Positions 1,490 to 25,905 of a stretch of 37,281 nucleotides of DNA are shown piece by piece; the first letter of the stretch is position 1; each line of letters opens with the position of its first letter. This stretch comes from Bacteriovoracaceae bacterium. GTDB taxonomy: Bacteria; Bdellovibrionota; Bacteriovoracia; Bacteriovoracales; Bacteriovoracaceae. The notes under the pieces were generated by a model, which did not search any database, was not told where the DNA came from, and was given only the letters and a program-made list of their open reading frames with translations. Both the position numbers and the translations under genes were made by a program. The stretch covers positions 1 to 37,281 of the forward strand of contig CANFNX010000008.1 in the NCBI GenBank assembly GCA_947448495.1. Direction: 5' to 3'.

Positions 1490-2014
1490 ATGTTGTCTGA
1501 AAAAATTAAAAATACAATTAACGGGATTCGCCATCAGTTTCCAACTGAGCAAGCGCTTCTACTTCCACTTTTACATCAAATCCAGAATGAATATGGATGG
1601 ATTTCTCCGGATTCAATGAAGTCTGCTGGTGAGTTCCTGAATCTACCTCTTTCTAAAGTCAGGGAAGTGGCGAGCTTCTATACTATGTATAAGCTTGAGC
1701 CTCAGGGGAAAGTTGATCTACAAATTTGTACAAACATTTCTTGTTGGTTGAATGGAGCTGATAAACTTGTTGCCTGCGCTGAAAAGAGACTTGGCATTAA
1801 ATGTGGGGAAACGACCAAAGACGGAAACTTCACACTTTCTCAAGTCGAGTGCCTTGCTGCGTGTGGTACCGCTCCGGCCTTAATGCTTAACGAAGATTAC
1901 TATGAAAGTTTAGATGTTCCAAAATTAAACGAAATTCTCGATCAGGCGTCTAAAGATTTAGCCGCTGGGAAAGTTGTGGGTAAAAGCACACGTAAAGATG
2001 GAGTATGGCCATGA
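1490..2014 (+). CDS. nuoE: NADH-quinone oxidoreductase subunit E (24 kDa, [2Fe-2S] N1a)
   Basis: This 174-residue subunit belongs to the NADH-oxidising module of complex I. The thioredoxin-like [2Fe-2S] motif is visible as CTNISC (C-x4-C) and, further on, CLAACGTAP (C-x3-C), which supply the four ligands of cluster N1a. The N-terminal helical part ([16 protein letters not shown], followed by [11 protein letters not shown]) is typical of the family. The start ATG follows a GGAGT sequence at a suitable distance. The stop codon overlaps the start of nuoF (ATGA), so NuoE and NuoF are translationally coupled, as expected for partners of one electron-input dimer. Confidence 0.97.
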
Positions 2015-4894: not shown

Positions 4895-4905
4895 GAAAGG
4901 TAACC

Positions 4906-5997
4906 ATGGAAAATTCATTAATGTTTGATCTTTCAATGATGATGGCAAAAATTGTAGTGATCCTCATCGGAACACTAGGTGTAGTTCCTGTGATGGTTTG
5001 GTTTGAGCGTCGTGGTGCTGCCTGGATGCAGAGACGAGTCGGACCTAATCGCGTTGGACCTTTCGGTCTTCTTCAGCCCCTTGCCGATGTGGTGAAATTT
5101 ATTTTCAAAGAAACTTTTATACCTAAAGAAGCCAACAAGTTTTATTACTTGATGGCTCCCATCATTGCCTTAATTGCACCTTTATGCGCCGTTGCTGTGA
5201 TTCCCTTTGGAAGCAAGGCCATTATTAATGGTCAGGAAGTGGTTCTTCAAGTTGCTCAAATGGATACTGGGGTTATTTTTATTCTCGCTTTTGCTGGTCT
5301 TGAAGTATATCCGGTGATCCTTGCTGGATGGGCCTCTCGCAATAAGTATTCAGTTTTGGGCGCTCTTCGGGGATCGAGTCAGATTGTTTCGTATGAAATT
5401 TCAATGGGAATTGCACTTCTTTCAATGTTAGTTGTTTATGGTAGTTTCAATCCACATGAAATGGTTTCTTGGCAGCAGGGATCTCTTGGCTTTCTCCCAC
5501 GTTGGGGAGCCTTTGTGAATCCAATTGGTGCTTTGATCTTCTGGATTTCTATCTTTGCAGAAACAAATCGTCTTCCTTTTGACCTCGCTGAAGGTGAGTC
5601 AGAAATTGTGGCCGGGTATCACCTTGAGTACGGCGGGATGAAATTTGCTGCCTTCTTTATGGCCGAATATGTCGCCATGATTATGGCTTCAGGATTGTTA
5701 GCGACACTTTTCTTCGGAGGCTATGGTCTTCTGCCAGGAATGGAGCATCTCGTTTCTATGGTGGCGAATCATTTTGGTTTTGGAGATGTTGGTCTTCAAA
5801 ATACGAAGGCTGCTTTTGAGTTCATTAGTTTCGCTACGAAAATTGCATTCTTCATGTTTCTCTTCGTCTGGATTCGTTGGACTCTTCCACGTTTCCGTTT
5901 TGACCAATTAATGGATTTGGGATGGAAAATTCTTTTCCCGATTTCGCTTATTAACCTTGTTGTAGTGACCATCGGTGTCTACTACTTTAACTCATAA
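4906..5997 (+). CDS. nuoH: NADH-quinone oxidoreductase subunit H
   Basis: This 363-residue integral membrane subunit lies at the junction of the membrane and peripheral arms and forms the entry to the quinone channel. Hydrophobic helices run through the whole protein. Conserved blocks include the cytoplasmic loop RRVGPNRVGPFGLLQPLADVVK, FAGLEVYPVILAGW, and the acidic loop FDLAEGESEIVAGYHLEYGG, which is typical for quinone and proton coupling. The ATG follows AAGAAAGG with good spacing, 11 bases after the nuoG stop. Length and motifs are normal, and nothing suggests degeneration. Confidence 0.98.
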   Translation: MENSLMFDLSMMMAKIVVILIGTLGVVPVMVWFERRGAAWMQRRVGPNRVGPFGLLQPLADVVKFIFKETFIPKEANKFYYLMAPIIALIAPLCAVAVIPFGSKAIINGQEVVLQVAQMDTGVIFILAFAGLEVYPVILAGWASRNKYSVLGALRGSSQIVSYEISMGIALLSMLVVYGSFNPHEMVSWQQGSLGFLPRWGAFVNPIGALIFWISIFAETNRLPFDLAEGESEIVAGYHLEYGGMKFAAFFMAEYVAMIMASGLLATLFFGGYGLLPGMEHLVSMVANHFGFGDVGLQNTKAAFEFISFATKIAFFMFLFVWIRWTLPRFRFDQLMDLGWKILFPISLINLVVVTIGVYYFNS

Positions 5998-6009
5998 GAA
6001 GGGGGCTTG

Positions 6010-6516
6010 ATGGGAACAATTAACGTTTCTAAAAAGTACACCGCTAAAGAAAAAGCTTATCTCCCTGCAATTCTCATTGGTATGAAAATTACGATGAAGC
6101 GGTTTATTCAGGGATTCTTGTTCAGAAAACATGACACCATCATGTATCCAGAGAAAAAACGTGATTATTCAGATCGTTTTCGTGGAATGCATTTTATTTC
6201 TGTTGATAAAAACAAAACTGAAAATTGCACTGCTTGTTATCTTTGTGAAACGATTTGCCCAGCTGAATGTATTCATATTGTAGCAGACGAGCGTGATGAA
6301 GAGCACAACCCATATGGAGTCAAAAAAGAGAAGAAGCCTGTGAGCTTTGATATCGACGCTCTTCGCTGTTGCTTTTGTGGTTTTTGTGAGGAAGCTTGTC
6401 CGAAAGATGCCATTAAGCTTTCTGGAAATTATGAATTGGCCGTTTCTTCTCGTGAAGAAGCCATTTACGATCTTGATCACTTGAAACGTGACATGAACGG
6501 TAGGAGAGAAAAGTAA
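6010..6516 (+). CDS. nuoI: NADH-quinone oxidoreductase subunit I (two [4Fe-4S] clusters)
   Basis: This is the TYKY-type ferredoxin subunit carrying clusters N6a and N6b, 168 residues from ATG 6010 (an in-frame TTG lies just before, at 6007). AAGAAGGGGG upstream is a strong ribosome binding site. Both full C-x2-C-x2-C-x3-C-P motifs are present: CTACYLCETICP and CCFCGFCEEACP. An amphipathic N-terminal segment with KITMKRFI is typical and docks on the membrane arm. The stop overlaps the nuoJ start by one base (TAATG). Compare with the single-cluster relative at 16444-16821. Confidence 0.98.
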   Translation: MGTINVSKKYTAKEKAYLPAILIGMKITMKRFIQGFLFRKHDTIMYPEKKRDYSDRFRGMHFISVDKNKTENCTACYLCETICPAECIHIVADERDEEHNPYGVKKEKKPVSFDIDALRCCFCGFCEEACPKDAIKLSGNYELAVSSREEAIYDLDHLKRDMNGRREK

Positions 6517-7040
6517 TGAGCCCAGTGATTATTGTTCTTTGTTGCATTTGTGCCCTCTTGGCAGCTCTGATGCTGGTTGCTCGTAGTCCAATTACTTCCG
6601 CATTGTCTCTTCTGGGTGTGTTAATTATGACAGCCGGGATCTATGCGATGATTGGTGAGCACATGATTGCGACTATCCAGTTAGTCGTTTATGCGGGGGC
6701 CATTATGGTTCTCTTTATCTTTTCAATTATGCTTTTGAATTTAAGTAATGCAGAAAACGAATACAAAGAAAAACCAGGTGTATTTCTTGCTGGCCTAGCT
6801 CTCGGAATAACTGTCTTTGCTTTCATCATGTATGCGATCAAAGATAATTTTATGAATAATGCGGGTTCCGAAAAAATAGGAATCTTTTCGCCGGAGTTAA
6901 TTAACAAACTCGGTGGAAACTCGAAAGTCTTGTCACATGCTTTGTTTTCGCAATTCTATGTCTCATTTGAAGTCATTTCTCTCGCTTTACTAATTGCTGT
7001 CGTTGGTGCGGTTGTCCTCGCTAAACGTAAAATTGATTAA
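6516..7040 (+). CDS. nuoJ: NADH-quinone oxidoreductase subunit J
   Basis: This 174-residue membrane subunit of the complex I proton-pumping arm has about five hydrophobic segments. The conserved third helix block QLVVYAGAIMVLFIFSIML, containing the pi-bulge region of NuoJ, is clearly recognisable, and SPITSALSLLG near the N-terminus is also typical. The start is coupled to nuoI by a one-base overlap, with AGGAGAGAAAAG just upstream. nuoK follows after 8 bases. Confidence 0.97.
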   Translation: MSPVIIVLCCICALLAALMLVARSPITSALSLLGVLIMTAGIYAMIGEHMIATIQLVVYAGAIMVLFIFSIMLLNLSNAENEYKEKPGVFLAGLALGITVFAFIMYAIKDNFMNNAGSEKIGIFSPELINKLGGNSKVLSHALFSQFYVSFEVISLALLIAVVGAVVLAKRKID

Positions 7041-7048
7041 GGTAAAAT

Positions 7049-7351
7049 ATGAATAACGAAATTCTCATTCAACTACTTGCCGCCTTCCTTTTTACCATGG
7101 GAATGCTCGTCGTTCTGCTCAGACGAGACACGATTATGGTTTTAATGGGAATTGAGCTACTTTTGAATGCTGCCAATCTTTCTATCGTGGCTTTTTCTAA
7201 GTCAGCACAAATGCTTGAAGGTCAAGTTCAGGTGTTCTTTATTATAACAATTGCCGCAGCTGAATCTGCTATCGGTCTTTCTATCTTGGTAAATCTGTAT
7301 AGGAATTTCGGTTCAATTAAGACTCAAAGTGCGACAACTCTTAAAGGATAA
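7049..7351 (+). CDS. nuoK: NADH-quinone oxidoreductase subunit K
   Basis: At 100 residues this has the normal NuoK length, with three transmembrane helices. The two membrane glutamates used in proton transfer are visible in the blocks MGIELLLNAANL and TIAAAESAIGLSIL. The start ATG follows AAGGTAAAAT, 8 bases after nuoJ. It is part of the antiporter-like membrane arm with NuoJ, NuoL, NuoM and NuoN. Confidence 0.98.
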   Translation: MNNEILIQLLAAFLFTMGMLVVLLRRDTIMVLMGIELLLNAANLSIVAFSKSAQMLEGQVQVFFIITIAAAESAIGLSILVNLYRNFGSIKTQSATTLKG

Positions 7352-7356
7352 GACTC

Positions 7357-9333
7357 GTGGATACAATGCAATCTATTTTACCTCTACTCATTCTTATCTC
7401 TCCATTGATTGGTTTCTTCATCAATGCTGTGATTTTACCACTGGCGCTTAAAGGATTTGCGAAAACTCCAGCTAACACTGCTGGTGGAGTTGCAACTGCG
7501 TTTATTGGTTTTAGTTTTATTCTTGCACTTTTTGCTTTTGCGAGTTTGTCTGGATCTTCCTCTCACGAACCATCACTCGTCATTAATTGCTTTGATTGGT
7601 TTAATTTTGGTGGCTTGAATATTCCCTTTGAACTTCGCATCGATAAGCTTTCTGGACTGCTTGTTCTCATCATTACTGGGATTGGGACCCTGATTCACCT
7701 TTACTCCATTAGTTACATGCATGAAGAAGAATGTGTCGGTCGTTACTTTTCCTATTTGAACCTCTTCTGCTTTAATATGCTTTTGTTAGTAATGGGGAAT
7801 AACCTGCCATTACTTTTCTTTGGTTGGGAAGGAGTGGGTCTCTGCTCTTATCTACTTATTGGTTTTTGGTATACAGAAACTGAGAAGGCGAATGCTGGAA
7901 AAAAAGCCTTTATTGTGAACCGAGTAGGGGACTTAGGTTTTCTTGTTGGAATGTTTCTTCTTTTTAGAGAGCTTGGGACGTTGACTCTACCAGAGATTAA
8001 TTCTCTTTTGGCAAACCCTGAAGTTGTCACAAGAATTATGCCTTCAGTAACTCTTATTTGTTTGTCTTTATTTGTGGGAGCCACTGGTAAGTCGGCGCAA
8101 ATGCCACTTTATGTTTGGTTACCAGACGCAATGAGTGGTCCCACTCCTGTGTCTGCGTTGATTCACGCAGCTACAATGGTAACAGCTGGAGTCTATATGA
8201 TTGCCAGGCTTAATCCTTTATTCGAGCTTTCTCCTGTTGCACTTTCTGTTGTTGCTCATGTTGGGGCGATTACGGCTTTATTTGCTGGGTCTATAGCGAT
8301 TGCTCAAACAGATATTAAAAAAGTTCTCGCTTACTCAACTGTTTCTCAGTTGGGTTTTATGTTTCTTGCTTGTGGTGTAGGCGCCTACCAAACCGCCGTT
8401 TTTCACCTCATGACTCACGCATTTTTCAAGGCTCTTCTCTTTTTGGGCTCAGGTTCAGTCATCCATGCTTGCTCTGGTGAGCAAGATATGACGAAAATGG
8501 GAGCTCTGAAAAAGCATCTACCTCATACCCACTTAACCATGCTTATTGGTTCACTGGCCATTTCAGGGATTCCATTTTTCTCCGGATTCTTTTCAAAAGA
8601 CGAAATCCTTTACTCCACAATTGCGCTACCTGGTGGGGTTTCATACCTTTTCGTTATTGGTGTTATTACAGCTATTTTAACGGCGTTCTATACCGGAAGA
8701 ATGATGAGTCTTACCTTTTACGGTACGAAGAGATATTCTCATGAAGTTGAACATCACCTCCATGAGTCACCTGCTTTAATGACATTCCCACTTTATGTAC
8801 TGGCTTGCCTTGCTGCCCTTGGTGGATTCTTAGGAGTTCCTCATCTCCTAGGGGATTTCCTAGGACATATGCCTCACTACCTTTCTCATTGGCTTGATGG
8901 TGTTGTACCTGCTAAACATCTTCCACTTGTTGGAATAAAGATTCCTTTGCATGAAGGATTAGTGATGGCCGGATCCTCCATCCTTGCCATACTTTCTTTC
9001 CTCGCAGGGGTTACGCTCTTTAAGAAATATCTCTTTGTGAAAGATATTTTAGGGGCTTTTAATCCTATCGAGAAAATTCTTGCTAATAAATATTACGTTG
9101 ATGAGTTCTATGAGTTTGTTATCGTTTCTCCAGTTAAAAAGATTGCTGAATTCTCTTCAGGCATCGTAGATAAATATATTTTTGATGGAGCAGTTAACGG
9201 ACTTGGTCATCAGGTTCGTAAAATTAGTTCCGGTCTAAGAGTGCTTCAGACGGGGGATTTGCAGTCTTATGCCCTAATGATGCTTTTAGGGGTATTAGCG
9301 ATCATTCTCTTCATCTTTAAGATTTTGGTGTAA
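7357..9333 (+). CDS. nuoL: NADH-quinone oxidoreductase subunit L
   Basis: This is the distal antiporter-like subunit of complex I, 658 residues, starting with GTG at 7357. AAAGGA at 7343-7348 gives 8-base spacing to this GTG, which makes it preferable to the internal ATG at 7366. Conserved blocks are FFGWEGVGLCSYLLIGFW (with the key Glu), VNRVGDLGF, GKSAQMPLYVWLPDAMSGPTPVSALIHAATMV and KDEILY. The C-terminal portion has the long lateral-helix region and a final transmembrane helix, as expected for NuoL but not NuoM or NuoN. No frame disruption is seen. Confidence 0.98.
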   Translation: MDTMQSILPLLILISPLIGFFINAVILPLALKGFAKTPANTAGGVATAFIGFSFILALFAFASLSGSSSHEPSLVINCFDWFNFGGLNIPFELRIDKLSGLLVLIITGIGTLIHLYSISYMHEEECVGRYFSYLNLFCFNMLLLVMGNNLPLLFFGWEGVGLCSYLLIGFWYTETEKANAGKKAFIVNRVGDLGFLVGMFLLFRELGTLTLPEINSLLANPEVVTRIMPSVTLICLSLFVGATGKSAQMPLYVWLPDAMSGPTPVSALIHAATMVTAGVYMIARLNPLFELSPVALSVVAHVGAITALFAGSIAIAQTDIKKVLAYSTVSQLGFMFLACGVGAYQTAVFHLMTHAFFKALLFLGSGSVIHACSGEQDMTKMGALKKHLPHTHLTMLIGSLAISGIPFFSGFFSKDEILYSTIALPGGVSYLFVIGVITAILTAFYTGRMMSLTFYGTKRYSHEVEHHLHESPALMTFPLYVLACLAALGGFLGVPHLLGDFLGHMPHYLSHWLDGVVPAKHLPLVGIKIPLHEGLVMAGSSILAILSFLAGVTLFKKYLFVKDILGAFNPIEKILANKYYVDEFYEFVIVSPVKKIAEFSSGIVDKYIFDGAVNGLGHQVRKISSGLRVLQTGDLQSYALMMLLGVLAIILFIFKILV

Positions 9334-9342
9334 GGACTTTTT

Positions 9343-10890
9343 ATGCAAACAACTTCAACCTTGCTCTCTTGGATTATTTTTCTTCCTTTAATTTTTGGTT
9401 TGGTGACATTCCTGACTCCAACTGCTTTTGAAGGGAAATTTAGAACGATTGCCCTTATTCAGACACTTGTGAATGCTTTTCTTGCCACTATCCTTTATTT
9501 TAATTTTGATGGAAGTCTTGCTGATCCTCAATTTATTCATGCATTGGAATGGTTGCCAGATTGGGGGATAAACTATCTTGTTTCTATTGATGGACTTAGC
9601 CTACCTCTTGTTATGCTAACTGCTTATGTTGCTCCAGTGGCTATCCTTGGAACTTGGCCTGCAAGCGGAGTGGAGTTAAAAAAAGAAAAGTTTTTTGTCC
9701 TCATGTTGATGTTCTTACAAACGGGTATGTATGGGACATTTCTTGCTACTGATATTTTTCTCTTCTATTTCTTTTGGGAAGTCGTACTTATTCCAATGTT
9801 CTTTCTTATTGGGATTTGGGGGGGGAAAGAGCGAATCTATGCGACAGTTAAGTTCTTCTTATACACCATGGTTGGCTCGCTACTTATGCTGGTTGCTATT
9901 TTCTTTATGCTTAAAACATCAGCTGAGGTTCATGGCCATCCTTCTGCTACATTTGCCAATTTGTCTCAACTTCAATTCGCCTTCGATGGATCATCTTTAA
10001 AGTCAGCATTTTTCTCTCCGCAGGGCTTGTTGTTTCTTGCCTTTGCACTCGCTTTTGTCATTAAAGTTCCAATGGTTCCTTTCCATACTTGGTTACCGGA
10101 TGCGCACGTACAGGCTCCTACTGTTGGTTCAGTTTTCCTGGCAGCCGTGTTATTAAAACTTGGAACCTATGGCCTGCTGAGAATTGCGATTCCTCTATTC
10201 CCTCAGGCTGCCTTTTATTTTAAAGATTTTTTTATCACCATGGGAGTCGTAGGAATTATTTATGGCGCTTTCTGCGCTCTCGCCCAAACTGATTTCAAAA
10301 AACTTGTGGCTTATTCTTCTGTTTCTCATATGGGTTATATCGTAGTGGGGTTATTTTCATTTCAAAAAGTCGCGATTGCTGGATCACTTTATCAAATGAT
10401 TAACCATGGTATTTCTGCCGGTGGTCTTTTTTTAATCGTAGGCTTTCTTTATGAAAGATTACATACACGTAATCTAACTGATTTTGGTGGATTATCTAAA
10501 ACAGTACCTCTCATGGCCATTGCTTTCATGATTATGACACTTTCTTCAGTTGCTCTTCCTGGCTCAAACGGTTTTGTTGGAGAGTTTCCAATTTTACTAG
10601 GGGCTTTTCAGGTAGAACCTATGTTCGTTTTATTTGCAGGAACTGGTGTGATTTTAGGGGCTGTTTACGCTCTTAAGGCTTATCAACTTGTTATGCTTGG
10701 CCCACAAACAAGAACAGACTTGGATCATTTGCATGATTTGAACACAAGAGAAGTGATTGCAATGACAGTGTTAGCTTTTTTTGTATTCGGTATTGGTTTC
10801 TTTCCTAAAACATTTTTTGGAAAATCTGATGCCAGCTTATACCAGTACACGAGCACTCTTTCTTACAAAGTAGGTCAAAATGGACATTAA
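9343..10890 (+). CDS. nuoM: NADH-quinone oxidoreductase subunit M
   Basis: This antiporter-like proton-pumping subunit has 515 residues. Blocks seen: FYFFWEVVLIPMFFLIGIWGG with the functional Glu, KVPMVPFHTWLPDAHVQAPT with the conserved Lys and the family signature, and SHMGYIVVGLFSF. The start follows a GGAC/TTTT stretch 9 bases after nuoL. The gene contains an uninterrupted run of eight G (9818-9825) in the codons for the WGG of GIWGG, a potential slippage spot. The stop overlaps nuoN by 11 bases. Confidence 0.98.
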   Translation: MQTTSTLLSWIIFLPLIFGLVTFLTPTAFEGKFRTIALIQTLVNAFLATILYFNFDGSLADPQFIHALEWLPDWGINYLVSIDGLSLPLVMLTAYVAPVAILGTWPASGVELKKEKFFVLMLMFLQTGMYGTFLATDIFLFYFFWEVVLIPMFFLIGIWGGKERIYATVKFFLYTMVGSLLMLVAIFFMLKTSAEVHGHPSATFANLSQLQFAFDGSSLKSAFFSPQGLLFLAFALAFVIKVPMVPFHTWLPDAHVQAPTVGSVFLAAVLLKLGTYGLLRIAIPLFPQAAFYFKDFFITMGVVGIIYGAFCALAQTDFKKLVAYSSVSHMGYIVVGLFSFQKVAIAGSLYQMINHGISAGGLFLIVGFLYERLHTRNLTDFGGLSKTVPLMAIAFMIMTLSSVALPGSNGFVGEFPILLGAFQVEPMFVLFAGTGVILGAVYALKAYQLVMLGPQTRTDLDHLHDLNTREVIAMTVLAFFVFGIGFFPKTFFGKSDASLYQYTSTLSYKVGQNGH

Positions 10891-12358
10891 TAATTATTTT
10901 CCTCTTGTTGCACTAAAACCTGATGAACTTGCTTGTGTTGCTCCTTTGCTAACAATTTCCTTTGGAGCCGTTGTAAGTTTACTCGTTGGAACCCACAAGA
11001 CTAAGGGACATGGATTGGCCTACATGGCTTCATTCATCTTTTTATTAACTGCGATTTTTCAATCATCATTCTCCATCTTTTCGAGTGACATAACCTTGAT
11101 TGCAGGATCTCTCACTTTCAATCCATTTACGAAGACGGTTGGATTGATGATCATGATTTTTGCAATGTTTGGTATTGTTGTGACTTATGGACAGGATTTC
11201 AAAGAAGGTTTATTAGCAGAAATCTATTCACTCATTCTTTTCTCTGCTGCAGGCATGATCCTAATGGCATCGACAACTCATTTGTTGTTCATGTTTATTG
11301 CCCTTGAGATTATGTCTCTTGCCGTTTACGTCATGGTTGGAATGAGAAGATCAAGTCGTTTCTCTTCTGAGGCAGCAATGAAGTACTTTGTCCTCGGCGG
11401 TCTTGCATCAGCTATGTTACTTTATGGTTCATCTTTGATCTTTGGATCAATGGGGTCATTTGAATTGGGTACAATAAATTTGCAATTAATTCAAAAAACG
11501 TCAGCTCCTTTATTATACATGGTTGGACTCGGTCTTGTTGTTGTTGCCATGCTTTTCAAGGTAGGAGCATTTCCTTTTCACGGTTGGTTACCCGATGTTT
11601 ATCAAGGTGCAAGTACGAATGTGACTGGCTACATGGGTGCATCTGTGAAATTCACTGCTTTTATTGCTCTTGCAAAAATTTCTCAGAATCTCATCTTCGT
11701 CGATAATGTTCCTGCTCTTAAGTGGTTTCAACATTTCATTTGGTTCACCGCTGCTGCAAGTATGATTTATGGTAACTTCGTTGCAATTTCTCAAACAGAA
11801 TTGAAGAGAATGCTTTCTTTTTCTACCATTGCCCATTCTGGTTATTTACTCTTAGGGTTGTTTGCAATGAACTCATCGAAAGAATCGTCTCAGTACATGG
11901 TTCTTTATTTGTTTTTTTATGCCATCTCTAATCTTGGCGCGTTTGCAGTAATCTCACTTTTTGAAGAAAAAAATCAAAAAGATCTTCATCTAGATCAGAT
12001 TGCTGGAATTGGCTTTAAACATCCTGTACTTGCTTCTCTCTTGACGATTTTCTTGCTTTCAATGGCAGGAATTCCTCTCACTTCGGGATTCATTGGGAAG
12101 TATGGTCTTTTCAGTTCTGCCGTGTCTGCTGGTGAAGTTCCTCTTGTCGTTATTGCCGTTCTTACATCAGTCGTCTCGGTTTATTATTATCTACGTGTGA
12201 TTGTCTTCATGTTTATGAAAGAGTCTAATTCATCTTTAGCTAAGTACCAGAAGATGCAAGGAGCTGCCCTGGCAGCTTTCGTCTCTGCAATCGTCACTCT
12301 TCAGTTTGGGCTTTTCCCAAAGACATTTGTTCATTTTGTTAAAATGATTGCAAAATAA
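10880..12358 (+). CDS. nuoN: NADH-quinone oxidoreductase subunit N
   Basis: This third antiporter-like subunit has 492 residues. Typical blocks are FIALEIMSLAVYVMVG, KYFVLGGLASAMLLYGSS, KVGAFPFHGWLPDVYQGA, AISQTELKRMLSFSTIAHSGYLLLG and AGIPLTSGFIGK. It begins inside the end of nuoM (11-base overlap), which implies coupled translation. It is the last canonical complex I gene of the operon; only the small acylphosphatase-like gene follows before the terminator. Confidence 0.98.
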   Translation: MDINNYFPLVALKPDELACVAPLLTISFGAVVSLLVGTHKTKGHGLAYMASFIFLLTAIFQSSFSIFSSDITLIAGSLTFNPFTKTVGLMIMIFAMFGIVVTYGQDFKEGLLAEIYSLILFSAAGMILMASTTHLLFMFIALEIMSLAVYVMVGMRRSSRFSSEAAMKYFVLGGLASAMLLYGSSLIFGSMGSFELGTINLQLIQKTSAPLLYMVGLGLVVVAMLFKVGAFPFHGWLPDVYQGASTNVTGYMGASVKFTAFIALAKISQNLIFVDNVPALKWFQHFIWFTAAASMIYGNFVAISQTELKRMLSFSTIAHSGYLLLGLFAMNSSKESSQYMVLYLFFYAISNLGAFAVISLFEEKNQKDLHLDQIAGIGFKHPVLASLLTIFLLSMAGIPLTSGFIGKYGLFSSAVSAGEVPLVVIAVLTSVVSVYYYLRVIVFMFMKESNSSLAKYQKMQGAALAAFVSAIVTLQFGLFPKTFVHFVKMIAK

Positions 12359-12897: not shown

Positions 12898-12948
12898 TTG
12901 ATACGAGAAAAGTAGAGTAATGATGTTATGTTATTGAGATTATGTCAA

Positions 12949-14415
12949 ATGAAAAGCCTGCTCTCTTTGATTCTTCTTTTATTCGTTGGGTGCAGTTTCA
13001 TCTCAACCAGCGAGGACGGTCCTGAGTCCATCCTTCCTATTAAAGCTTCTTGGTTTTCTAGTCAGACCAATCATGCATTGGTTGACCGTGAGGGAAGTCC
13101 AGTGGCCCATTTGTTTTTTGATATCACAACAAATAAATCTGAATTAAAACCTCTCGTCTCTACAGTGATCATTACGAGACAAGGCTCCACCTATCAGTAC
13201 GAGTTTGATCTGGCCTCCGGTCAAAGGTATTTTTCACATGCTTATTGTCCTCAAAAAGATATATGGAATCAGTACTCCGGTGAAATCAATAAACCTAATT
13301 TTAGTACCGGTATAATACCGGGATTTTTAGACCAGATTGGCTCCCCTCAAAAAGTCATTGTTTTTGGTGGAGCAAGGAAATTTAAAAGAGCTACCGATAT
13401 TTTTGAAAATACTGTCAAGCTCGTCGGGGCCTATATTGAACAAAATTGTCCAGAGGGCAATTGTCTTGGAAAGAGCATTTGGGTATCTAGAATGGTCTTT
13501 GTAGCTGTCGATCTTTCAAGTAAGAAATTGAAGGATGTAAATAATGTAGCTTCACTAGAGAGTCTGGTGGATTGGGGGAAGGCAAAAGCTGTCTTGGAAA
13601 ATCAATATGGATATAACGATGTTGCTGGAGCAAGGTACCCTTATATTAGAGTCGGAAACTTGATCCCACTTGATGAAGCCATCCGTTACCATCAAAAAAA
13701 CTCCATTTTTATATCGACAGGTGAGGCTCGTAAGATCCAGAAGGGCTGTCATGCACTCTATGACAAGTTATGGAAGGAAGTTGGTGAAGAGCAAGATGTC
13801 GATAAACCTGCATTTAATCTAGAGCAGCTGAATAAAAAAGCGAAGCTCATTGAGCAATTAAAAGAGCAGAGGAAGCCGGTTGGATTTGCAGCTAGATTTA
13901 AAACTTTTGCCATCAAATATCATTCCGAACTAATGACATGTGAAAAATTTGTATATGCAGGGAACATAAATAGAAACCCTGAAGAGTTTTGGTTTCTAAC
14001 CTACGTCGGCACTTTTATGCACTTACACAATGAAGGTTACTACTTTGACTGTAGAAATCGAAGTTGGCAAAAAAATGTAAAAGACTCATTCGGTAGATAC
14101 AAATATGACTTTAAAAGTGGAATTGAAAGTTGCCAGGAGCGTGAGTTCGATCAGGCAATGACGTTGATTCCCAATTTCCTGAAAAGTCTTGTTGGATCAA
14201 GTCCTACTTATTTTAAATTTGTCGATTATGACAATCATCCTTTTGGCAGTCATGCAAAGTTATATTCCCTGGTCGATGTCACAACTAAAAAAATGGGATG
14301 CGATTCAGACGAGAATATTGCTTTTCGAAAGCAACTGAAAGCAATGGCAGAAGATGTAAAATGGAAATCTCGTTTCGTTAAAGATATGGGCGACGAAATG
14401 AAGATAATATATTAA
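12949..14415 (+). CDS. unknown lipoprotein, first gene of the accessory Nuo-like cluster
   Basis: This 488-residue protein has a signal peptide MKSLLSLILLLFVG followed by Cys, a plausible lipobox for export and lipid attachment. I chose ATG 12949 over the in-frame ATG 12928 because it gives a normal signal peptide and has GAGAT about 8 bases upstream. The body is mostly soluble, with about ten further Cys (for example EQNCPEGNC), which could form disulfides in the periplasm. I do not recognise a domain. The stop overlaps the NuoB-like gene by one base (TAATG), implying one operon with the Nuo-like genes, although a periplasmic lipoprotein and cytoplasmic Nuo-like proteins would act in different compartments. 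An alternative is that the promoter is shared with no functional link. Confidence 0.8.
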   Translation: MKSLLSLILLLFVGCSFISTSEDGPESILPIKASWFSSQTNHALVDREGSPVAHLFFDITTNKSELKPLVSTVIITRQGSTYQYEFDLASGQRYFSHAYCPQKDIWNQYSGEINKPNFSTGIIPGFLDQIGSPQKVIVFGGARKFKRATDIFENTVKLVGAYIEQNCPEGNCLGKSIWVSRMVFVAVDLSSKKLKDVNNVASLESLVDWGKAKAVLENQYGYNDVAGARYPYIRVGNLIPLDEAIRYHQKNSIFISTGEARKIQKGCHALYDKLWKEVGEEQDVDKPAFNLEQLNKKAKLIEQLKEQRKPVGFAARFKTFAIKYHSELMTCEKFVYAGNINRNPEEFWFLTYVGTFMHLHNEGYYFDCRNRSWQKNVKDSFGRYKYDFKSGIESCQEREFDQAMTLIPNFLKSLVGSSPTYFKFVDYDNHPFGSHAKLYSLVDVTTKKMGCDSDENIAFRKQLKAMAEDVKWKSRFVKDMGDEMKIIY

Positions 14416-14807
14416 TGAAAGTAATCAAACCTGATCTCAAAATTTATTGTTTGCAAAATCCTGTTGCGGCTACAGAGTTTAGGGCCATCTTTGGTGATAA
14501 ATATTGTCACTCACTAGCATTCAATCCTGTTTTTACAACACATCTAGGGGAGTCCGATTTGATTGTTTGGGACGGACTCATTTCTGTGAAAATGAAGCGA
14601 ATACTACCAGAATTGAGGCAGTCACTAAGTCAAAATAAAGTGCTTTTGTTAATAGAAGATTCTATGACACTTATTGAAAAAAACTTTTTTGTGCAATTTT
14701 TTGATAGCGAGGACTATCCGACCGTTAAATTAAATGGATGGACTATGCTTCCAGAGGATTTATTACCAGCACTTGAACAGTGCTTTCAAAAGATGAAAAA
14801 TGTTTAA
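14415..14807 (+). CDS. NuoB-like protein lacking most cluster-N2 cysteines
   Basis: This 130-residue protein follows the NuoB pattern in its middle and C-terminus. SDLIVWDGLISVKMKRILPEL fits the NuoB block usually written ADVLIVAGTVTNKMAPALRRL. The following strand (KVLLLIEDSM) sits where GSCA normally occurs, and LNGWTMLPEDLLPALEQ sits where VPGCPPxPEALL occurs, so both Cys positions are Ser/Trp. Only Cys12, Cys31 and Cys123 remain, and there is no adjacent Cys pair. Cluster N2 is therefore very unlikely. The gene is coupled on both sides (1-base overlap with the lipoprotein gene, 8-base overlap with the NuoCD-like gene), and the neighbours support the NuoB-like identity. Similarity is remote and was judged by eye; the protein may serve only as a scaffold. 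Confidence 0.6.
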   Translation: MKVIKPDLKIYCLQNPVAATEFRAIFGDKYCHSLAFNPVFTTHLGESDLIVWDGLISVKMKRILPELRQSLSQNKVLLLIEDSMTLIEKNFFVQFFDSEDYPTVKLNGWTMLPEDLLPALEQCFQKMKNV

Positions 14808-16434
14808 CTGGAAAGACTTTGAAAAAAATAAGCTAATCTTGTCTCAGGATGAATCTTATGTTGATCAGGCGGGACAGCATCACGTATTTGTTCGCCCAAT
14901 AAATTTGCTTCGCTGGATTGAAATGAGTCGCGAGGATTTAGGATTTCTGACACTTGTAGAAATTGCTGGTGCTGATTATTTAGGCGATTCTGAAAAAAAA
15001 TTCCGTTTCGAACTTGTTTATCACCTGCTCAACATGGGGACTCATCAAAGATTAAATATCCATGTGTTGTTTAATGACTTAGAAATCGTTCCAAGTATTA
15101 CCTCCATTTTTAGCAACGCCGATTGGCTAGAGCGAGAACAGTGGGAAAATTTTGGAATTTTATTCGATCGAAAAATGATGAGTTTATTACTTCCATCTGA
15201 TCAAGTGGTTTTTCCACTTCGGAAAGGAGGGATTAAGATTGAATGGCCTGAAGATATTCCCTTGAAAATAACTCCTTTAAATAAAAACCCCAATAAATCT
15301 GAAGCCCCTTATCCTGAAGAACTTTATCAGTGGAAGAGTTATGGCTTGCTGTCCCCACAGTCTTTGGGGCTTTTTGAACTAGATGCTTGTTATGATCCTG
15401 ATAAAATTGTTAAAACACAAATTAATGTAGGTTTTTATCACCAAGGGTTAGAGTCTTCGTTTGGCAATATTCAGTGGTTGCGGTCACTGCATCTTGTGGA
15501 CAAGATTAATGTTGGGATCTCTCCCTATTTTGGAGTCGCGTGGGCAAAAAACTTAGAAGATTTGATTCGGATAAAAATACCAGAAAGGGCACAAGCAATA
15601 AGGATCGTATTTCTAGAACTCTCTCGAGTAGCCGAACATTTAACTGTCATGCATGAAATGGCGATCGCCTTAAGCCTTGATGAGCACAGGCTTTTTTTAA
15701 ATGCGCGAGAAAAGATCTATGAATTAGTTGAAAAATATTGTGGTCGCCGACAGGGTGTAGGAATCGTTCGCTTAGGTGGAGTGAAAGAAGATCTACCATT
15801 CGGTTGGATTGCTGAGTATCAGTCAACTGCCGATGTGGTTCTAAAAAATTTGGCGATCATCCATCGATCATTATTAAGTCAGTATACTTTTCGAGAAAAT
15901 TTAAATACCTCAGAGGTGAGTGCACAAACTGCCTTGCAGTGGGGCGTGAGTGGTCCAGCGATGCGAGCTTGCGGACTTAATTTTGATTTACGCAAATCTC
16001 AACCATTTTATTTTTATCAAGATATTGATTTTGATATCCCCGTTGGAATTCACGGTTCTTCTTATGAAAGATATCTCATAAGGTATGAGGAGATTTTCCA
16101 AAGTTTTAGAATCATCACTCAGGTGATAGATAATCTTCCAATGGGCGGTGTGATCAATCCTGATTGGGACCTCGATTATTTTCAAATTCAAGATTTACTA
16201 GAAAAACAAGATTTGCCTGAAGGTTGGCATTATACGGGTCTTGAAGCTCCAAACGGAGAGTCGGGTTTTTATGTAAAATACAATCGAACGACATTCCCCT
16301 CAAGAGTTAAAATTAAAACAGCAAGTCTACCTTTGGCCCAGTCGCTCTCAATGATGATAAAAGATGTTAAAGAAGTTCAATTGCGGGCATGTATGGCAAG
16401 TTTGGGGATAAGGCAAACTGAGCTAGATAGGTAA
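14800..16434 (+). CDS. fused NuoC-NuoD-like protein with altered quinone site
   Basis: This 544-residue protein has a NuoC-like N-terminus (about 1-130, with NADWLEREQWENFGILF in place of the canonical [12 protein letters not shown]) and a NuoD-like C-terminus (about 180-544). The NuoD blocks are GFYHQGLES, LELSRVAEHL, YERYLIRYEEIFQSFRI, EAPNGESGFYVKYN and the last residues ELDR. An ungapped comparison with the NuoD at 262-1476 puts the GPSHPAMHG loop opposite GLLSPQSLG, so both His become Ser185 and Leu189, and the quinone-ligand Tyr is Val238. There are no hydrogenase-type CxxC pairs, so this is not a NiFe hydrogenase large subunit. It is coupled to the NuoB-like gene by an 8-base overlap and followed 9 bases later by the NuoI-like gene. 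I infer a structural or regulatory relative of the complex I connecting module. Confidence 0.9.
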   Translation: MFNWKDFEKNKLILSQDESYVDQAGQHHVFVRPINLLRWIEMSREDLGFLTLVEIAGADYLGDSEKKFRFELVYHLLNMGTHQRLNIHVLFNDLEIVPSITSIFSNADWLEREQWENFGILFDRKMMSLLLPSDQVVFPLRKGGIKIEWPEDIPLKITPLNKNPNKSEAPYPEELYQWKSYGLLSPQSLGLFELDACYDPDKIVKTQINVGFYHQGLESSFGNIQWLRSLHLVDKINVGISPYFGVAWAKNLEDLIRIKIPERAQAIRIVFLELSRVAEHLTVMHEMAIALSLDEHRLFLNAREKIYELVEKYCGRRQGVGIVRLGGVKEDLPFGWIAEYQSTADVVLKNLAIIHRSLLSQYTFRENLNTSEVSAQTALQWGVSGPAMRACGLNFDLRKSQPFYFYQDIDFDIPVGIHGSSYERYLIRYEEIFQSFRIITQVIDNLPMGGVINPDWDLDYFQIQDLLEKQDLPEGWHYTGLEAPNGESGFYVKYNRTTFPSRVKIKTASLPLAQSLSMMIKDVKEVQLRACMASLGIRQTELDR

Positions 16435-16443
16435 GGATAAGAC

Positions 16444-16821
16444 ATGATTTTAAACAGGAATTTTTATAATAAAATGCCCGCTTGGAAAAGCTGGTGGTTC
16501 AAGCGTCAATTACTCAAGTTAACAGGTGATAAAATATTCAAGTCTTTTAAATTACATAAAACTGAATGGCCTCAGAAGATCTATTTTTACTCCCCACGTT
16601 TGAGGCGTAAACCTGTGTTTATTGGTAATGCTGAAAAATTATCTTTGTGGAAAGAGTCAAAAATCTGTGAGAACATATGTCCGACTCAGGCGATCAAAGT
16701 GGAGGCAGAAGCCATCATAATTGATGATCGTGGATGTATTGGATGTGGTCTTTGTGTTGAGTTTGCCCCTGCAGGTCTTTTGGAAATGCTAAGGGAAGTC
16801 ACTCCTGAACATCGGTCTTGA
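16444..16821 (+). CDS. NuoI/HyfH-like ferredoxin subunit with a single [4Fe-4S] site
   Basis: This 125-residue protein has a basic, Trp/Phe-rich N-terminus (PAWKSWWFKRQ) resembling the membrane-docking segment of NuoI. The second ferredoxin motif reads C98-x2-C101-x2-C104-x3-A108-P. The first retains only Cys75 and Cys79-Pro80, with Trp69 and Ser72 where the first two Cys would be. In two-cluster ferredoxins one site uses the first three Cys of one motif plus the last Cys of the other. By that rule Cys98, Cys101, Cys104 and Cys79 form one complete site, and all three lost Cys belong to the other. It therefore probably binds exactly one [4Fe-4S]. It sits between the NuoCD-like gene and the desaturase gene, 13 bases before the latter. 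Confidence 0.85.
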   Translation: MILNRNFYNKMPAWKSWWFKRQLLKLTGDKIFKSFKLHKTEWPQKIYFYSPRLRRKPVFIGNAEKLSLWKESKICENICPTQAIKVEAEAIIIDDRGCIGCGLCVEFAPAGLLEMLREVTPEHRS

Positions 16822-16834: not shown

Positions 16835-17911
16835 ATGATAAAACTTTTTTCTTTCTTTGCGGTTGCTTTTGCTACCCTTTGGCTAACAGTGGAAAAAACC
16901 TTGGGAATGAATGGTATTCTAGGAGATGTTGTAGCAGCTCATCCTGTGACTTTCATCATCATCTACGCTTGTGTCGTTGCACATATTACGATTACTTGTA
17001 TGAGTCTTTCTTACCACCGCTATCATACTCATAAAGGCGTGATCATTAATAAGTGGATTGATATGCCTATGCAAGTTTGGCTTTGGTTGGTGACATCATT
17101 GAACAAAGTTGATTGGGTTGCTGTTCATATCTTCCATCATGCAAACTCAGATTTAGAAAAAGATCCTCATAGTCCTGTTCAAAAAGGTATTTGGCACGCT
17201 CTTTTTCTTGGTGTTTTTGATTACACGGCAGGGAAGTCCTTCCCCGAAGTTATGAGAATTAAAAAGACGATTCACACGAACAGTCTTGAGGCTTACATGC
17301 GGGAGCACTCTTTCATTGGTCCCGCCATCCTTACGGTCGTTATGGTCTTTTTATTTGGGCCAGTGTGGGGATCGGTTTTAAGTGTTGTTAACTTTATGGT
17401 TTCACCCATTTTTGCAATTGGTGGAGTCAATGCTATCGCTCACTGGTGGGGATATAGAAATCACGAGACAACAGACAACAGCAGAAATATTGGTTTTCTT
17501 TTACCATTAAATTTTATTATCTGTGGTGAACTCGACCATAATAATCATCATGGCCATATGAGATCTTGTTCATTTCGTCATCGTTGGTTTGAGTTTGATA
17601 TTGGTTATGTTTATATCAAAATTATGGCCGCTTTAGGCTTAGCGGAAATTAAAAACGTCTACTCGCCTGCAACCTTGAAGCAAGAGCTTTCGAAGAAAAT
17701 GTCTGATCTCATAGAGAATGATCATCGTTTTAAAAAGCGTTGTGAAGAATTGGCGCATGAATTGAATATGTCTTATCAAGAATTCAAGGCCAATCTTGAA
17801 GCCTATTGCCGTGGTGAAAAAGTTAAACTTGAAAAATCTTGCCGTGATTTTATGGATGAAGTGATAAGAACACTCAAGGCTAATCAAAGATTACATTTAA
17901 GTTATAATTAA
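16835..17911 (+). CDS. membrane fatty-acid desaturase (acyl-CoA/delta-9 type)
   Basis: This 358-residue di-iron membrane enzyme inserts a double bond in fatty acyl chains. The three His boxes are HRYHTH (H-x4-H), HIFHH (H-x2-HH) and HNNHH (H-x2-HH), spaced as in stearoyl-CoA desaturases, with hydrophobic pairs of helices between them. About 100 C-terminal residues are charged and helical and may be a regulatory or interaction tail. It has no fused cytochrome b5 or ferredoxin domain, so electrons must come from a separate carrier. The start has AGGGGAA upstream and lies 13 bases after the NuoI-like gene, so it is probably in the same operon. The stop overlaps the stop of the convergent aat gene by 4 bases. 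Confidence 0.9.
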   Translation: MIKLFSFFAVAFATLWLTVEKTLGMNGILGDVVAAHPVTFIIIYACVVAHITITCMSLSYHRYHTHKGVIINKWIDMPMQVWLWLVTSLNKVDWVAVHIFHHANSDLEKDPHSPVQKGIWHALFLGVFDYTAGKSFPEVMRIKKTIHTNSLEAYMREHSFIGPAILTVVMVFLFGPVWGSVLSVVNFMVSPIFAIGGVNAIAHWWGYRNHETTDNSRNIGFLLPLNFIICGELDHNNHHGHMRSCSFRHRWFEFDIGYVYIKIMAALGLAEIKNVYSPATLKQELSKKMSDLIENDHRFKKRCEELAHELNMSYQEFKANLEAYCRGEKVKLEKSCRDFMDEVIRTLKANQRLHLSYN

Positions 17912-18567
17912 AAGATATCTTCTTTTTTTCGAGACCAGTTTTTCTGGAATAATAAACTTAGAAAATCTGGTCTTGAAATATAGATGCCACCAAATCCTTC
18001 AACGACTGACGTCACCATTTGAGTATCAATCCAATTAATTCCTTTTTCTTTCATTCTAAGACATAAACCATACAGAGCAAGTTTTGAAGCATTGTCTTCG
18101 TTAGTAAACATCGATTCACCAGATATGAAATCACCGATACAAACTCCATAAAGTCCACCAACCAAGTCTTTGTCTCTCCAGACTTCAACTGAATAGGCAA
18201 GATTTTGCTGAAATAGTTTATTATAACTCCGGATTATGTCCTCAGTGATCCAGGTAGAGGATTGCTGTTTCCGTGGAGTCGTTGAGCATTGGTTGATCAC
18301 TTCATCAAAAGCTTGATTGAAAGTGACTTGATAAACATTTTTTTTGATAAATTTATGAAAAGATTTTGAGATGTGAATCTGATCTAAAAAAAGTATTCCT
18401 CTTGGATTAGGAGAAAACCAGGCGAGAGGAAGCTCAGCTGATATAGGCCACGGAAATATTCCTTGTTTGTAAGCACAAACGAGGGTATCAACTTCCAGAT
18501 CTCCTCCAATCGCAACAAGTCCATCTTCGCTCGCAGTTTCAACAGGTGGGAAAATGATTTTTCTCAT
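17908..18567 (-). CDS. aat: leucyl/phenylalanyl-tRNA--protein transferase
   Basis: This 219-residue enzyme adds Leu or Phe from aminoacyl-tRNA to proteins with N-terminal Arg or Lys, marking them for ClpAP degradation through ClpS (N-degron pathway). Family blocks are FPPVETASEDGLVAIGGDL, AYKQGIFPWP, WFSPNPRGIL, YSVEVWRDKDLVGGLYGV, FISGESMF and the WIDTQMVT segment. Length is normal. It overlaps the upstream ureohydrolase gene by 4 bases, so it is the last gene of a three-gene - strand unit. The link to its operon partners is not obvious. Confidence 0.96.
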   Translation of the reverse strand: MRKIIFPPVETASEDGLVAIGGDLEVDTLVCAYKQGIFPWPISAELPLAWFSPNPRGILFLDQIHISKSFHKFIKKNVYQVTFNQAFDEVINQCSTTPRKQQSSTWITEDIIRSYNKLFQQNLAYSVEVWRDKDLVGGLYGVCIGDFISGESMFTNEDNASKLALYGLCLRMKEKGINWIDTQMVTSVVEGFGGIYISRPDFLSLLFQKNWSRKKEDIF

Positions 18568-19658
18568 AGAGATAGAGCTTCTAATAGTTTCTTGGCGATA
18601 TGGCCGGCCATCATCATAGAAGAATTTTGTACATCTGGATTTACACCTGGATGATGAACATAAGGAGCGACCTCCATAAGGTCAGATCCCGTAATCTTAA
18701 AATCTTTGCTCAGCAGATGAAATAATGCTGAACAATCAGCAGGGTTAAGCCCGTCTGGCTCTGGAGTTCCAGTTGCCGAGGCATATTTCTCATCAAGTGC
18801 ATCAATATCAAAGGAAATATACAACTCGGAGATTTCAAGTTTTTTGAGGTGTTTTTTTAATTTGTTGTAGGTTTTTTGGATTCCCCATTTATTAATCTCA
18901 TGGGCCCAGTATTGTTCAACGCCTAATTTCTTTTTCCAATGACTCTTTGTTTTAGCACTGGAGCGTATACCAAGTTGAATAATATGTTTGGGAGAAGAAA
19001 GATGTCTCAGAATATGATAAGTCCATGTACCAAAACATAAATCGATTCCCATTCTTTTATCAAGTAAGTCAGTGTGGGCATCAAAATGAATAAGTGCTGC
19101 AGTCGCTTTTGACTTTCTTGATGCTAACCAAGTCTTCACAAGAGGATAGCTTGTTGAGTGATCCCCACCAACTCCAAAAATTTTTATGTTCGGTTGACTA
19201 TTATAAATTCTTGTTAATGCTTCTTCGGCAATACTTAAAGGTGAAACTGGAAGTTTTATTTTCTTACCGTAGAGAGCGAGTCTGCAATCCTGTATGGTTT
19301 TTTCATTAAGATATTTATCGTGAAGCAAATGAGGTATGACTCTGACATCACCTAGGTCTTGAAAATCTACATTATGTTTGAGTAATTCTTCTCTAATCGC
19401 TAAAGGTCCCCAGTTGGCCCCACGATGAATTCCTCCTCCATTGTCAGAAGGGATACCTAGGAGTAGAGGTGTCGATGCAGAAATGTTTGAGAGCCGCTTT
19501 AGCCATTCTTTATTGGCCTTTACCGGGGAAGTTGTTTTGTAGTATTGCTTTAGGAGTCTTTCTTTTTTTTCTTTACCCGTATTAACTGTAAAAACGCCAG
19601 AGCCAGGAATTGTGAGTAATTGGTCGAGCTTTTTCAAATTAATTCCCCTTGAAACCAT
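18564..19658 (-). CDS. ureohydrolase family protein (arginase/agmatinase/formiminoglutamase type)
   Basis: This 364-residue Mn-dependent hydrolase fold has ligands visible in GVGGDHSTS, HFDAHTDLLD and SFDIDALDE, and a TGTPEPDGL substrate-loop block. Residues 1-50 form an N-terminal extension compared with short agmatinases. The substrate cannot be assigned from sequence alone; arginine, agmatine, formiminoglutamate or another guanidine compound are all possible. A second, more agmatinase-like relative lies at 24151-25044 next to speE. The start overlaps the 2-hydroxyacid dehydrogenase gene by 25 bases and the stop overlaps aat by 4, so it is in the middle of an operon. Confidence 0.88.
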   Translation of the reverse strand: MVSRGINLKKLDQLLTIPGSGVFTVNTGKEKKERLLKQYYKTTSPVKANKEWLKRLSNISASTPLLLGIPSDNGGGIHRGANWGPLAIREELLKHNVDFQDLGDVRVIPHLLHDKYLNEKTIQDCRLALYGKKIKLPVSPLSIAEEALTRIYNSQPNIKIFGVGGDHSTSYPLVKTWLASRKSKATAALIHFDAHTDLLDKRMGIDLCFGTWTYHILRHLSSPKHIIQLGIRSSAKTKSHWKKKLGVEQYWAHEINKWGIQKTYNKLKKHLKKLEISELYISFDIDALDEKYASATGTPEPDGLNPADCSALFHLLSKDFKITGSDLMEVAPYVHHPGVNPDVQNSSMMMAGHIAKKLLEALSL

Positions 19659-24150: not shown

Positions 24151-25044
24151 TTAGTTCATAGCGAGGATCACTTCTCTGACAACTTTCGAAGCAAAGCACG
24201 AAGAGTTTCCTGTGGCATCTAGCATTGGCGCCAGCTCCACCACATCGGCTCCAACTAAGTTTTTACGATTAAGGATTTTCAGGATGCGCATAAAACCATG
24301 CCAGTCTTCACCACCGGCTTCTGGGGTGCCAGTTCCAGGAAAAAAACCTGGATCAAAAAAATCTAGATCAAGAGTTAAATAAATCGGGCGAGTATCTGGT
24401 AACTCTTCTAACCATTCACAACATTCCTTGAGAGATGTCGCTAAAGTTTTATTTTCTTTCATCCAGTTGAATTCTTCTCGTGGGCCTGAACGTATTCCAT
24501 ATTGAATCAGACGATTCTTAGAAGTGAAGTGATCCAAGATTCTTCTGATGATTGAGGCATGAGAATATTTTTCTTCGAGGTATCCATCACGAAGATCAGT
24601 GTGAGCATCTAAGTGTAGAACGACTAAATCAGGATAGTGCTTTAAGTGAGTAACGATAGGTCCATAAGAAATAGAATGTTCTCCACCTAAGGTGAGAAAT
24701 TTAATTTCATCTTTTTTAAAATCTAACTCTTTAACCATCTCCATGAAAAAATCATTTGTGATGTGCCACTTAGATGGATAAATCGGAAGATCTCCCATCG
24801 TGATAACATTGTAATCTGTAAGATCTTTATCGAGGTAAGGAGAATAATCTTCTAGGCCATAAGAGGCTTCACGGATAGCTCCAGGGGCGAATCTTGCTCC
24901 TGGACGAAAGCTGGTTGTCCCATCGAAGGCAAAGCCGAGAATATGAGTCGAATGGGAAAAAATCGCAGCAGCGTATTCAGTTCCAATAAAGGCTTTGGCA
25001 TGCTCAAGGCCTTCAACTTCTTTAATGAGACGAGGTTCTTTCAC
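24151..25044 (-). CDS. speB: agmatinase family ureohydrolase
   Basis: This 297-residue protein probably hydrolyses agmatine to putrescine and urea. Mn ligands are visible in LGGEHSISYG, HLDAHTDLRDG and TLDLDFFDPGFFPGTGTPEAGG. The substrate-specificity assignment rests mainly on context: it starts 3 bases after the speE stop, so putrescine made here would feed spermidine synthase. The GGEHS motif in place of GGDHS is a common variant in this group. It differs from the longer paralogue at 18564-19658, which lies in an unrelated operon. Confidence 0.9.
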   Translation of the reverse strand: MKEPRLIKEVEGLEHAKAFIGTEYAAAIFSHSTHILGFAFDGTTSFRPGARFAPGAIREASYGLEDYSPYLDKDLTDYNVITMGDLPIYPSKWHITNDFFMEMVKELDFKKDEIKFLTLGGEHSISYGPIVTHLKHYPDLVVLHLDAHTDLRDGYLEEKYSHASIIRRILDHFTSKNRLIQYGIRSGPREEFNWMKENKTLATSLKECCEWLEELPDTRPIYLTLDLDFFDPGFFPGTGTPEAGGEDWHGFMRILKILNRKNLVGADVVELAPMLDATGNSSCFASKVVREVILAMN

Positions 25045-25047: not shown

Positions 25048-25905
25048 TTACTCCTGTCCAATCATTTGTTTGTGGAAGTTTGAAATCGAAAACGTCCCCT
25101 TGTGCCAATCCATATTATACCACTTAAGCGAGCGTTGAATCTCATTCATGGCCATCATCTTGGCAGGGTTAATATCTGTCGCTTTATATTTTTTAGATGA
25201 AAATCCAAATGTCCAATAGACTCCCGGATAAATAAGCATTGGAGCGTTGAAAGAGTTAACGAATGGAAAAACTTTTCTCATGTTATTGTAAATATTTTTA
25301 ATTCCCCATTCATCTAGGAAAGGATTTTCAGTTTGGTTCATCATGATGCCGTCTTCAGTAAGAGCGTTGTAGACATCAGAGTAGAATTCATCAGTGAATA
25401 GTCCCGAGGCAAAATCGACTGGGTCAGTTGAATCAACAACAATAATGTCATATTCATTCTTGGCACGCTTGATAAATGCGAAACCGTCCTCTGGAAGCAC
25501 GCGAACTCTTTTGTCAGATAGTCCAGAGGTACAGTCAGGGAAATGAATTTTAGAAACTTCGATCACTCGCTCATCAATTTCAACGAGGTCGATTCGCTCA
25601 ATATCTTTATGCTTTACGAATTCGCGAACAACGCCACCATCACCTCCACCAATAATCAGGACTTTTTTACAGTTCCTACTGACCATGTAAGGAATGTGGG
25701 AGACAACTTCGTGATAAACGAACTCATCTTTATCTGAAACCATGGTTTTACCATCGAGAAGTAAGAGTTTTCCTACCGATTCGGTTTCGACCACTTCAAT
25801 CTTTTGAAACTTCGATTGCTCAGAGTGGAGGTATTTTTTTACCTTAAAACCCATAGCGAAAGTATTACGAAAAGACTCTTCGATCATCCAATTTTCGACG
25901 TTCAT
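25048..25905 (-). CDS. speE: spermidine synthase
   Basis: This 285-residue aminopropyltransferase makes spermidine from putrescine and decarboxylated SAM. Motifs: IIGGGDGGVVREF (dcSAM binding), LVEIDERVIEV, and VVDSTDPV with the catalytic Asp. The start ATG follows AAAGGGG. It is first in a two-gene unit with speB. No speA or speD is present in the window, so arginine decarboxylase and SAM decarboxylase must be elsewhere or replaced. It is divergent from hldD with a 133-base shared upstream region. Confidence 0.96.
   Translation of the reverse strand: MNVENWMIEESFRNTFAMGFKVKKYLHSEQSKFQKIEVVETESVGKLLLLDGKTMVSDKDEFVYHEVVSHIPYMVSRNCKKVLIIGGGDGGVVREFVKHKDIERIDLVEIDERVIEVSKIHFPDCTSGLSDKRVRVLPEDGFAFIKRAKNEYDIIVVDSTDPVDFASGLFTDEFYSDVYNALTEDGIMMNQTENPFLDEWGIKNIYNNMRKVFPFVNSFNAPMLIYPGVYWTFGFSSKKYKATDINPAKMMAMNEIQRSLKWYNMDWHKGTFSISNFHKQMIGQE

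Follow-up and report, generated by a model that had tools for sequence, protein, structure and literature searches.

Complex I is usually thought to be either kept whole or lost. Its connecting module, NuoB-NuoCD-NuoI, is comparable to HycG-HycE-HycF of formate hydrogenlyase. In two-cluster ferredoxins the ligation is crossed, with cysteines 1, 2, 3 and 8 holding one cluster and cysteines 4, 5, 6 and 7 holding the other. Electrons travel in the order N5-N6a-N6b-N2, and the chloroplast and cyanobacterial NDH retains N6a, N6b and N2 together with the quinone site and is redox-active (PMC6616624). Literature searches on degenerate complex I in Bacteriovoracaceae found nothing.

The window, which is the whole stretch of 37,281 nucleotides of Bacteriovoracaceae DNA that we analysed, carries a canonical complex I operon and downstream of it a lipoprotein gene (LIP) followed by genes for NuoB-, NuoCD- and NuoI-like proteins. 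We propose that the NuoI-like protein is what is left of NuoI from a second complex I, dismantled stepwise, and that one [4Fe-4S] cluster has been kept for structure in a non-redox module. We give this reading a probability of roughly 0.55. The features on which it is built are collected below.

Features of the window and, in the last row, of loci in related genomes
Feature	Position	Strand	Basis or remark
Canonical complex I operon nuoD-N (comparison)	262-12358	+	its NuoI at 6007-6516 with all eight ligands
LIP, predicted exported lipoprotein with an inorganic-pyrophosphatase-like fold and without the catalytic Asp triad	12928-14415	+	
NuoB-like protein of 130 aa lacking all four N2 Cys	14415-14807	+	matches a canonical NuoB profile
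Fused NuoC+NuoD-like protein, 544 aa, without quinone-site His/Tyr	14800-16434	+	Pfam 30 kDa and 49 kDa domains
NuoI-like protein, 125 aa, one complete [4Fe-4S] ligand set (predicted)	16444-16821	+	translation, profile match, predicted fold
Sites W69 and S72, where ligands were lost, and left-over C75 (16666-16668)	16648-16668	+	W69 in 21/21 core-genus rows
Kept-ligand codons C79 (16678-16680), C98 (16735-16737), C101 (16744-16746), C104 (16753-16755)	16678-16755	+	invariant in 28/28 one-cluster orthologues
Lost ligand site A108	16765-16767	+	26/28 rows with A or S, none with Cys
DesA-family fatty acid desaturase, next gene	16835-17911	+	NCBIfam match below cut-off, E 2e-62; gene order
Seven eroded open A-H-J-K-L-M-N genes	loci L187, L188, L192, L194, L225-L243		order, size, profiles

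The sequence-only reading of this DNA had claimed that three cysteines, at positions 69, 72 and 108, are missing relative to NuoI and that all three belong to the same cluster. The stretch it singled out (16648-16770) corresponds to codons 69-109 of the NuoI-like ORF and reads L-W69-K-E-S72-K-I-C75-E-N-I-C79-P...R-G-C98-I-G-C101-G-L-C104-V-E-F-A108-P109. Two CxxCxxCxxxCP motifs with eight ligands are not found; there are five cysteines (75, 79, 98, 101 and 104), four of which make a complete set, and W, S and A stand at the NuoI positions 69, 72 and 108. When the protein was aligned with the window's own NuoI, cysteines 1, 2 and 8 were gone, cysteine 3 (C75) was left over and cysteines 4-7 were kept. 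Because ligation is crossed, these losses hit one cluster only and leave the second ligand set complete, so the claim holds. C75, on which that reading was silent, persists though the other ligands of its cluster are gone. The further argument, that random decay would not be expected to respect this grouping, is weak when made from a single sequence, since three of eight losses fall within one set of four with p = 8/56 = 0.14. Orthologues were therefore needed, and they make the grouping strong.

The likeness to NuoI extends along the full length of the protein (hhalign P=99.2%, E 3e-18 against a canonical NuoI profile). The top PDB matches of its predicted fold were NuoI/NDUFS8, chain I of complex I (Foldseek E ~1e-3; model pTM 0.55). 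Against the NuoI model TIGR01971 it scored 26 bits, under the curated cut-off of 113.

Cysteine conservation across orthologues had been named as the check, with variation of the remaining cysteines counting against the idea. We found no such variation: C79, C98, C101 and C104 are invariant in all 28 orthologues that keep the ferredoxin domain in its one-cluster state, and positions 69, 72 and 108 are never Cys. Only 11 of the 125 columns are invariant among these rows, and the chance that the four named columns all fall among them is 3e-5, a figure that ignores kinship, as the 28 rows are related and the counts overstate the independent evidence. Ligand 3 (C75) is kept in 22 of the 28 rows and lost in 6, and these further losses strike the same ligand set again. 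In a 26-row alignment that includes full NuoI proteins the only invariant columns were C79, P80, C98, C101 and C104. The lost sites have been refilled regularly, with W69 and A/S108 each found in 21/21 core-genus rows. The orthologue stands in a conserved operon in nearly all genomes of the genus, at identities that are mostly 48-77% with one at ~30%.

The NuoI-like gene is under purifying selection. Its dN/dS was 0.03-0.21 for pairs with usable dS, by the simple NG86 method and with some dS near saturation. The codons of C79, C98, C101 and C104 mix TGT and TGC across orthologues, indicating that the constraint acts on the protein. Together the invariant cysteines and the purifying selection support the earlier suggestion that one cluster has a kept redox or structural role. 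The codon of C75 is TGT in 22/22 rows that keep it. Synonymous conservation is raised across codons 70-97 (window 16651-16734), where four-fold sites reach 0.64 in codons 76-90 against ~0.30 in neighbouring genes. Since C75 is always TGT and sits in this stretch, its persistence may come from a nucleotide element in codons 70-97 rather than from a ligand role; neither an RNA structure nor an overlapping frame was found when these codons were tested. The end of the gene also carries a conserved CATCGGTCTTGA-TAAGGA.

In most genomes with LIP this gene is followed by some of the peripheral-arm genes, arranged as B-CD-[E-F-G]-I. The window shares with several relatives an operon that adjoins nuoN directly, on its downstream side. 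The NuoB-like protein had no Pfam match but matched a canonical NuoB profile (P=95%, E 1e-8; controls negative at E ~1). Its N2 ligand positions are V, A, S and W in the window and Cys in no row of the genus. By MAFFT alignment the NuoCD-like protein has S, L, V and A at the equivalents of H55, H59, Y108 and D160. The window's operon holds no NADH module (NuoE/F/G), which does occur in the LIP operons of the g4 genomes, G070, G112 and G113. The desaturase gene trails the operon in several genera, even in some without B, CD or I. Elsewhere in the window, translations read by eye gave two arginase/agmatinase-like genes (18564-19658 and 24151-25044) and a spermidine synthase-like gene (25048-25905).

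LIP is present in 109 of 129 Bacteriovoracaceae genomes, and in a phylum sample of 291 it was found outside the family in one genome only, weakly. Pfam does not recognise it. LIP thus apparently represents an unrecognised family nearly confined to Bacteriovoracaceae. Besides the lipobox Cys it has eight cysteines, which are invariant in 103 full-length members. All 50 listed structural matches of its AlphaFold model (pLDDT 87) were family I inorganic pyrophosphatases, the best of them with a Foldseek probability of 1.00 and E 5e-8 over ~200 residues. When a LIP profile was compared with PDB sequences pyrophosphatases were again the only matches (E 0.011 and 0.25), and the motif GxIPxxLxxxGxP is common to both. 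The catalytic DGDPxD is absent, the consensus of 30 aligned members being LDQLGxPQK; the equivalents of D65, D67 and D70 in pyrophosphatases (E. coli numbering) are not a conserved Asp triad in LIP. With this site replaced, LIP is probably an exported relative that has no catalytic activity. In G107-G111 (L169-L173) LIP persists with no B, CD or I gene recognised alongside, and it may therefore have a use of its own. In G096 (L046 202-720) B, CD and I are present and LIP is a 173-aa remnant made up of its first and last parts.

Comparison across the family revealed a graded erosion of the peripheral arm. The g4 genomes (G004-G006, G009, G010, G013-G016) and G070 have the full arm, its ligands and quinone-site residues all canonical. 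Among LIP genomes, 10 have the quinone site, N2 and an eight-Cys NuoI all intact; 30 have changed quinone-site residues with N2 and the eight Cys kept; 11-12 have N2 or NuoB lost or partial with the eight Cys kept; and 27 have one NuoI cluster, counts that rest on BLAST with few reference proteins and miss very diverged NuoB or NuoI copies (for example in G117). All 27 of the last group are without quinone-site residues and without N2 ligands or a recognised NuoB. Other LIP genomes have no recognisable NuoI; most genomes are metagenome assemblies, and the absence of a gene from one of them may be incompleteness. The states are nested, and the order of erosion is quinone site, then N2 ligands, then one NuoI cluster, where the cysteine counts state what could bind and not what does. 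The reverse pattern, with ligands 4-7 lost and 1-3 and 8 kept, was seen in none of the family genomes.

All one-cluster rows but G106, which is placed elsewhere, group in a supported clade (SH-aLRT 99). Forcing G106 into the clade was rejected with LIP+CD (p-AU 0.02) and not rejected with LIP alone (p-AU 0.10). The one-cluster state thus arose at least once and likely by two independent losses, of the same cluster each time. In the main clade it may be a single event, and most of the 28 rows would then be non-independent. Since the complete form of complex I is found in lineages that lie apart on the LIP tree, and regain of canonical ligands is implausible, we infer that this form is ancestral and that the direction is loss and not gain, on an unrooted tree. 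An eight-Cys NuoI persists in genomes without N2, so lost electron flow alone does not remove the cluster. In G117 and G118, sisters of the one-cluster species, the N-terminus is kept, but a short CxxC stretch stands where the ferredoxin part would be. The cluster site is therefore not indispensable and can be dispensed with in some backgrounds; that the whole domain is gone where the site is gone suits a structural cluster. In five genomes (G063, G021, G054, G117 and G118; L084 8301-8609, L085, L157, L177 5824-6132 and L178 5003-5311) the gene 3' of NuoCD has CxxC-type stretches in place of the ferredoxin motifs. Judged from their sequence these are perhaps a zinc-binding replacement.

The membrane arm shows a parallel picture. 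At 12/12 loci examined around NuoH we found a complex I membrane arm A-H-J-K-L-M-N (Nuo2). A second membrane arm is intact and in tandem with Nuo2 in G004, G006 and G070, and shortened in G115. Most other genera examined have seven open membrane-protein ORFs between the Nuo2 nuoN and a gene for a ~1050-aa TPR protein, in the same order and smaller. Among them, profile comparison identified H (P 99%), N (85%) and J (54%), with a weaker case for K (26%); A, L and M were named by their order and size. Behind the Nuo2 nuoN of G000, G104, G091 and G024, all with a one-cluster NuoI, a second membrane arm was not found; a copy too diverged to recognise may lie elsewhere. Both arms of one complex I thus appear to have eroded together.

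In the window's genus the module probably no longer carries electrons, because the operon has no NuoE/F/G, N2 ligands or quinone-site residues and no second membrane arm was found in those genomes of the genus that were examined. This would leave the remaining cluster without a known electron partner in the complex and favours a structural role. Such a role is more likely than a redox one given the partners themselves, a NuoB-like protein without N2 Cys and a NuoCD-like protein without quinone-site His/Tyr. In the mechanism that we propose, a second complex I comes apart stepwise in Bacteriovoracaceae, and selection would most likely keep its B-, CD- and I-like proteins as a soluble B-CD-I scaffold that works together with exported LIP. 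LIP presumably lies outside the inner membrane and B, CD and I in the cytoplasm, which counts against a direct link between them. The cluster at 79/98/101/104 would be needed by the ferredoxin fold and for its contact with NuoB and NuoCD, and kept for that reason; the cluster facing the former NuoG would have been lost, with W69 and A108 filling its site. On the pattern of Thermus Nqo9, the kept ligand set is probably N6b (near N2, at the NuoB/NuoD interface) and the lost one probably N6a (near NuoG).

A complete ligand set under selection could also belong to a one-cluster ferredoxin that still carries electrons, for example as donor to the adjacent DesA-family desaturase. DesA-type desaturases need an electron donor, and 23 of the 27 one-cluster LIP operons are followed directly by the desaturase gene. 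However, 49 of the 52 eight-Cys operons are without an adjacent desaturase, none was found adjoining the one-cluster protein in G080, G087 and G091, and G117 and G118 retain the desaturase beside a NuoI without ferredoxin motif. In addition, G018 has LIP and a weak desaturase match but no B, CD or I. We consider this unlikely, although it is the best of the alternatives. Next to it stands the doubtful idea of a sensor: the cluster would respond to O2, NO, redox or Fe status and thereby switch LIP or the B-CD-I scaffold. This would fit a conserved, apparently non-catalytic complex that has a single cluster and no redox partners for it, but the operon has no regulatory domain, and the eight-Cys relatives with full complex I suggest an origin in electron transfer.

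The position of the operon right after nuoN, shared by the window with several relatives, would agree with a factor that assists or assembles the cell's functioning complex I, which in the window's genus is encoded alongside. Yet many other genera have no nuo membrane genes beside the operon, and three near-complete genomes (G026, G028 and G123; 96-99% complete) have no NuoH match and keep LIP-CD-I. The module is thus independent of a working complex I, and the NuoH-less genomes make an accessory role quite improbable. We rejected simple pseudogene decay, in which the gene is on its way out and the grouping arose by chance or in one ancestral event. The loss of the ferredoxin part in sister lineages, the 3-of-8 grouping taken alone and the possible single event in the main clade speak for it, but four cysteines invariant in 28 rows with synonymous turnover, the low dN/dS and frames that are open throughout leave it a very small chance.

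The preferred reading, a structural cluster in a remnant of complex I, can be widened into one that we hold tentatively, at somewhat under even odds: the whole complex I, both arms, would have been converted into a non-redox machine that lost its cofactors singly, kept its subunit set and works with an exported pseudo-pyrophosphatase lipoprotein, the one-cluster NuoI being the last metal site in the window's genus. Since relatives dismantled the second complex I stepwise without discarding it, and one iron-sulfur site was long kept, the data suggest that the leftover machine now has a non-respiratory job. About a hundred related genomes represent graded stages from an apparently complete enzyme to a cofactor-poor remnant, with frames open and selected where measured. 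As a natural series they allow one to ask which complex I parts serve without electron flow; they also bear on whether a [4Fe-4S] cluster can be retained purely for structure, and point to a new function linked with the Cys-rich lipoprotein of one family of predatory bacteria.

Each part of the operon can be set against a known system. LIP differs from family I inorganic pyrophosphatase in being exported (predicted), Cys-rich and longer by ~200 residues. The NuoI-like protein resembles NuoI, Nqo9 and NDUFS8 (TYKY) in homology over its full length, in its structural matches to chain I of complex I and in its NuoB- and NuoCD-like neighbours, but it is shorter, is without ligands 1, 2 and 8, can hold at most one cluster and stands in an operon without NuoE/F/G. 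The connecting module of complex I has the same three subunits including a fused C-D protein, whereas here N2 ligands, quinone-site residues and a membrane arm were not found, NuoI has one cluster and a lipoprotein gene is joined. The chloroplast and cyanobacterial NDH is likewise without the NADH module; in contrast to it, the Bacteriovoracaceae operon has shed such cluster and quinone sites stepwise.
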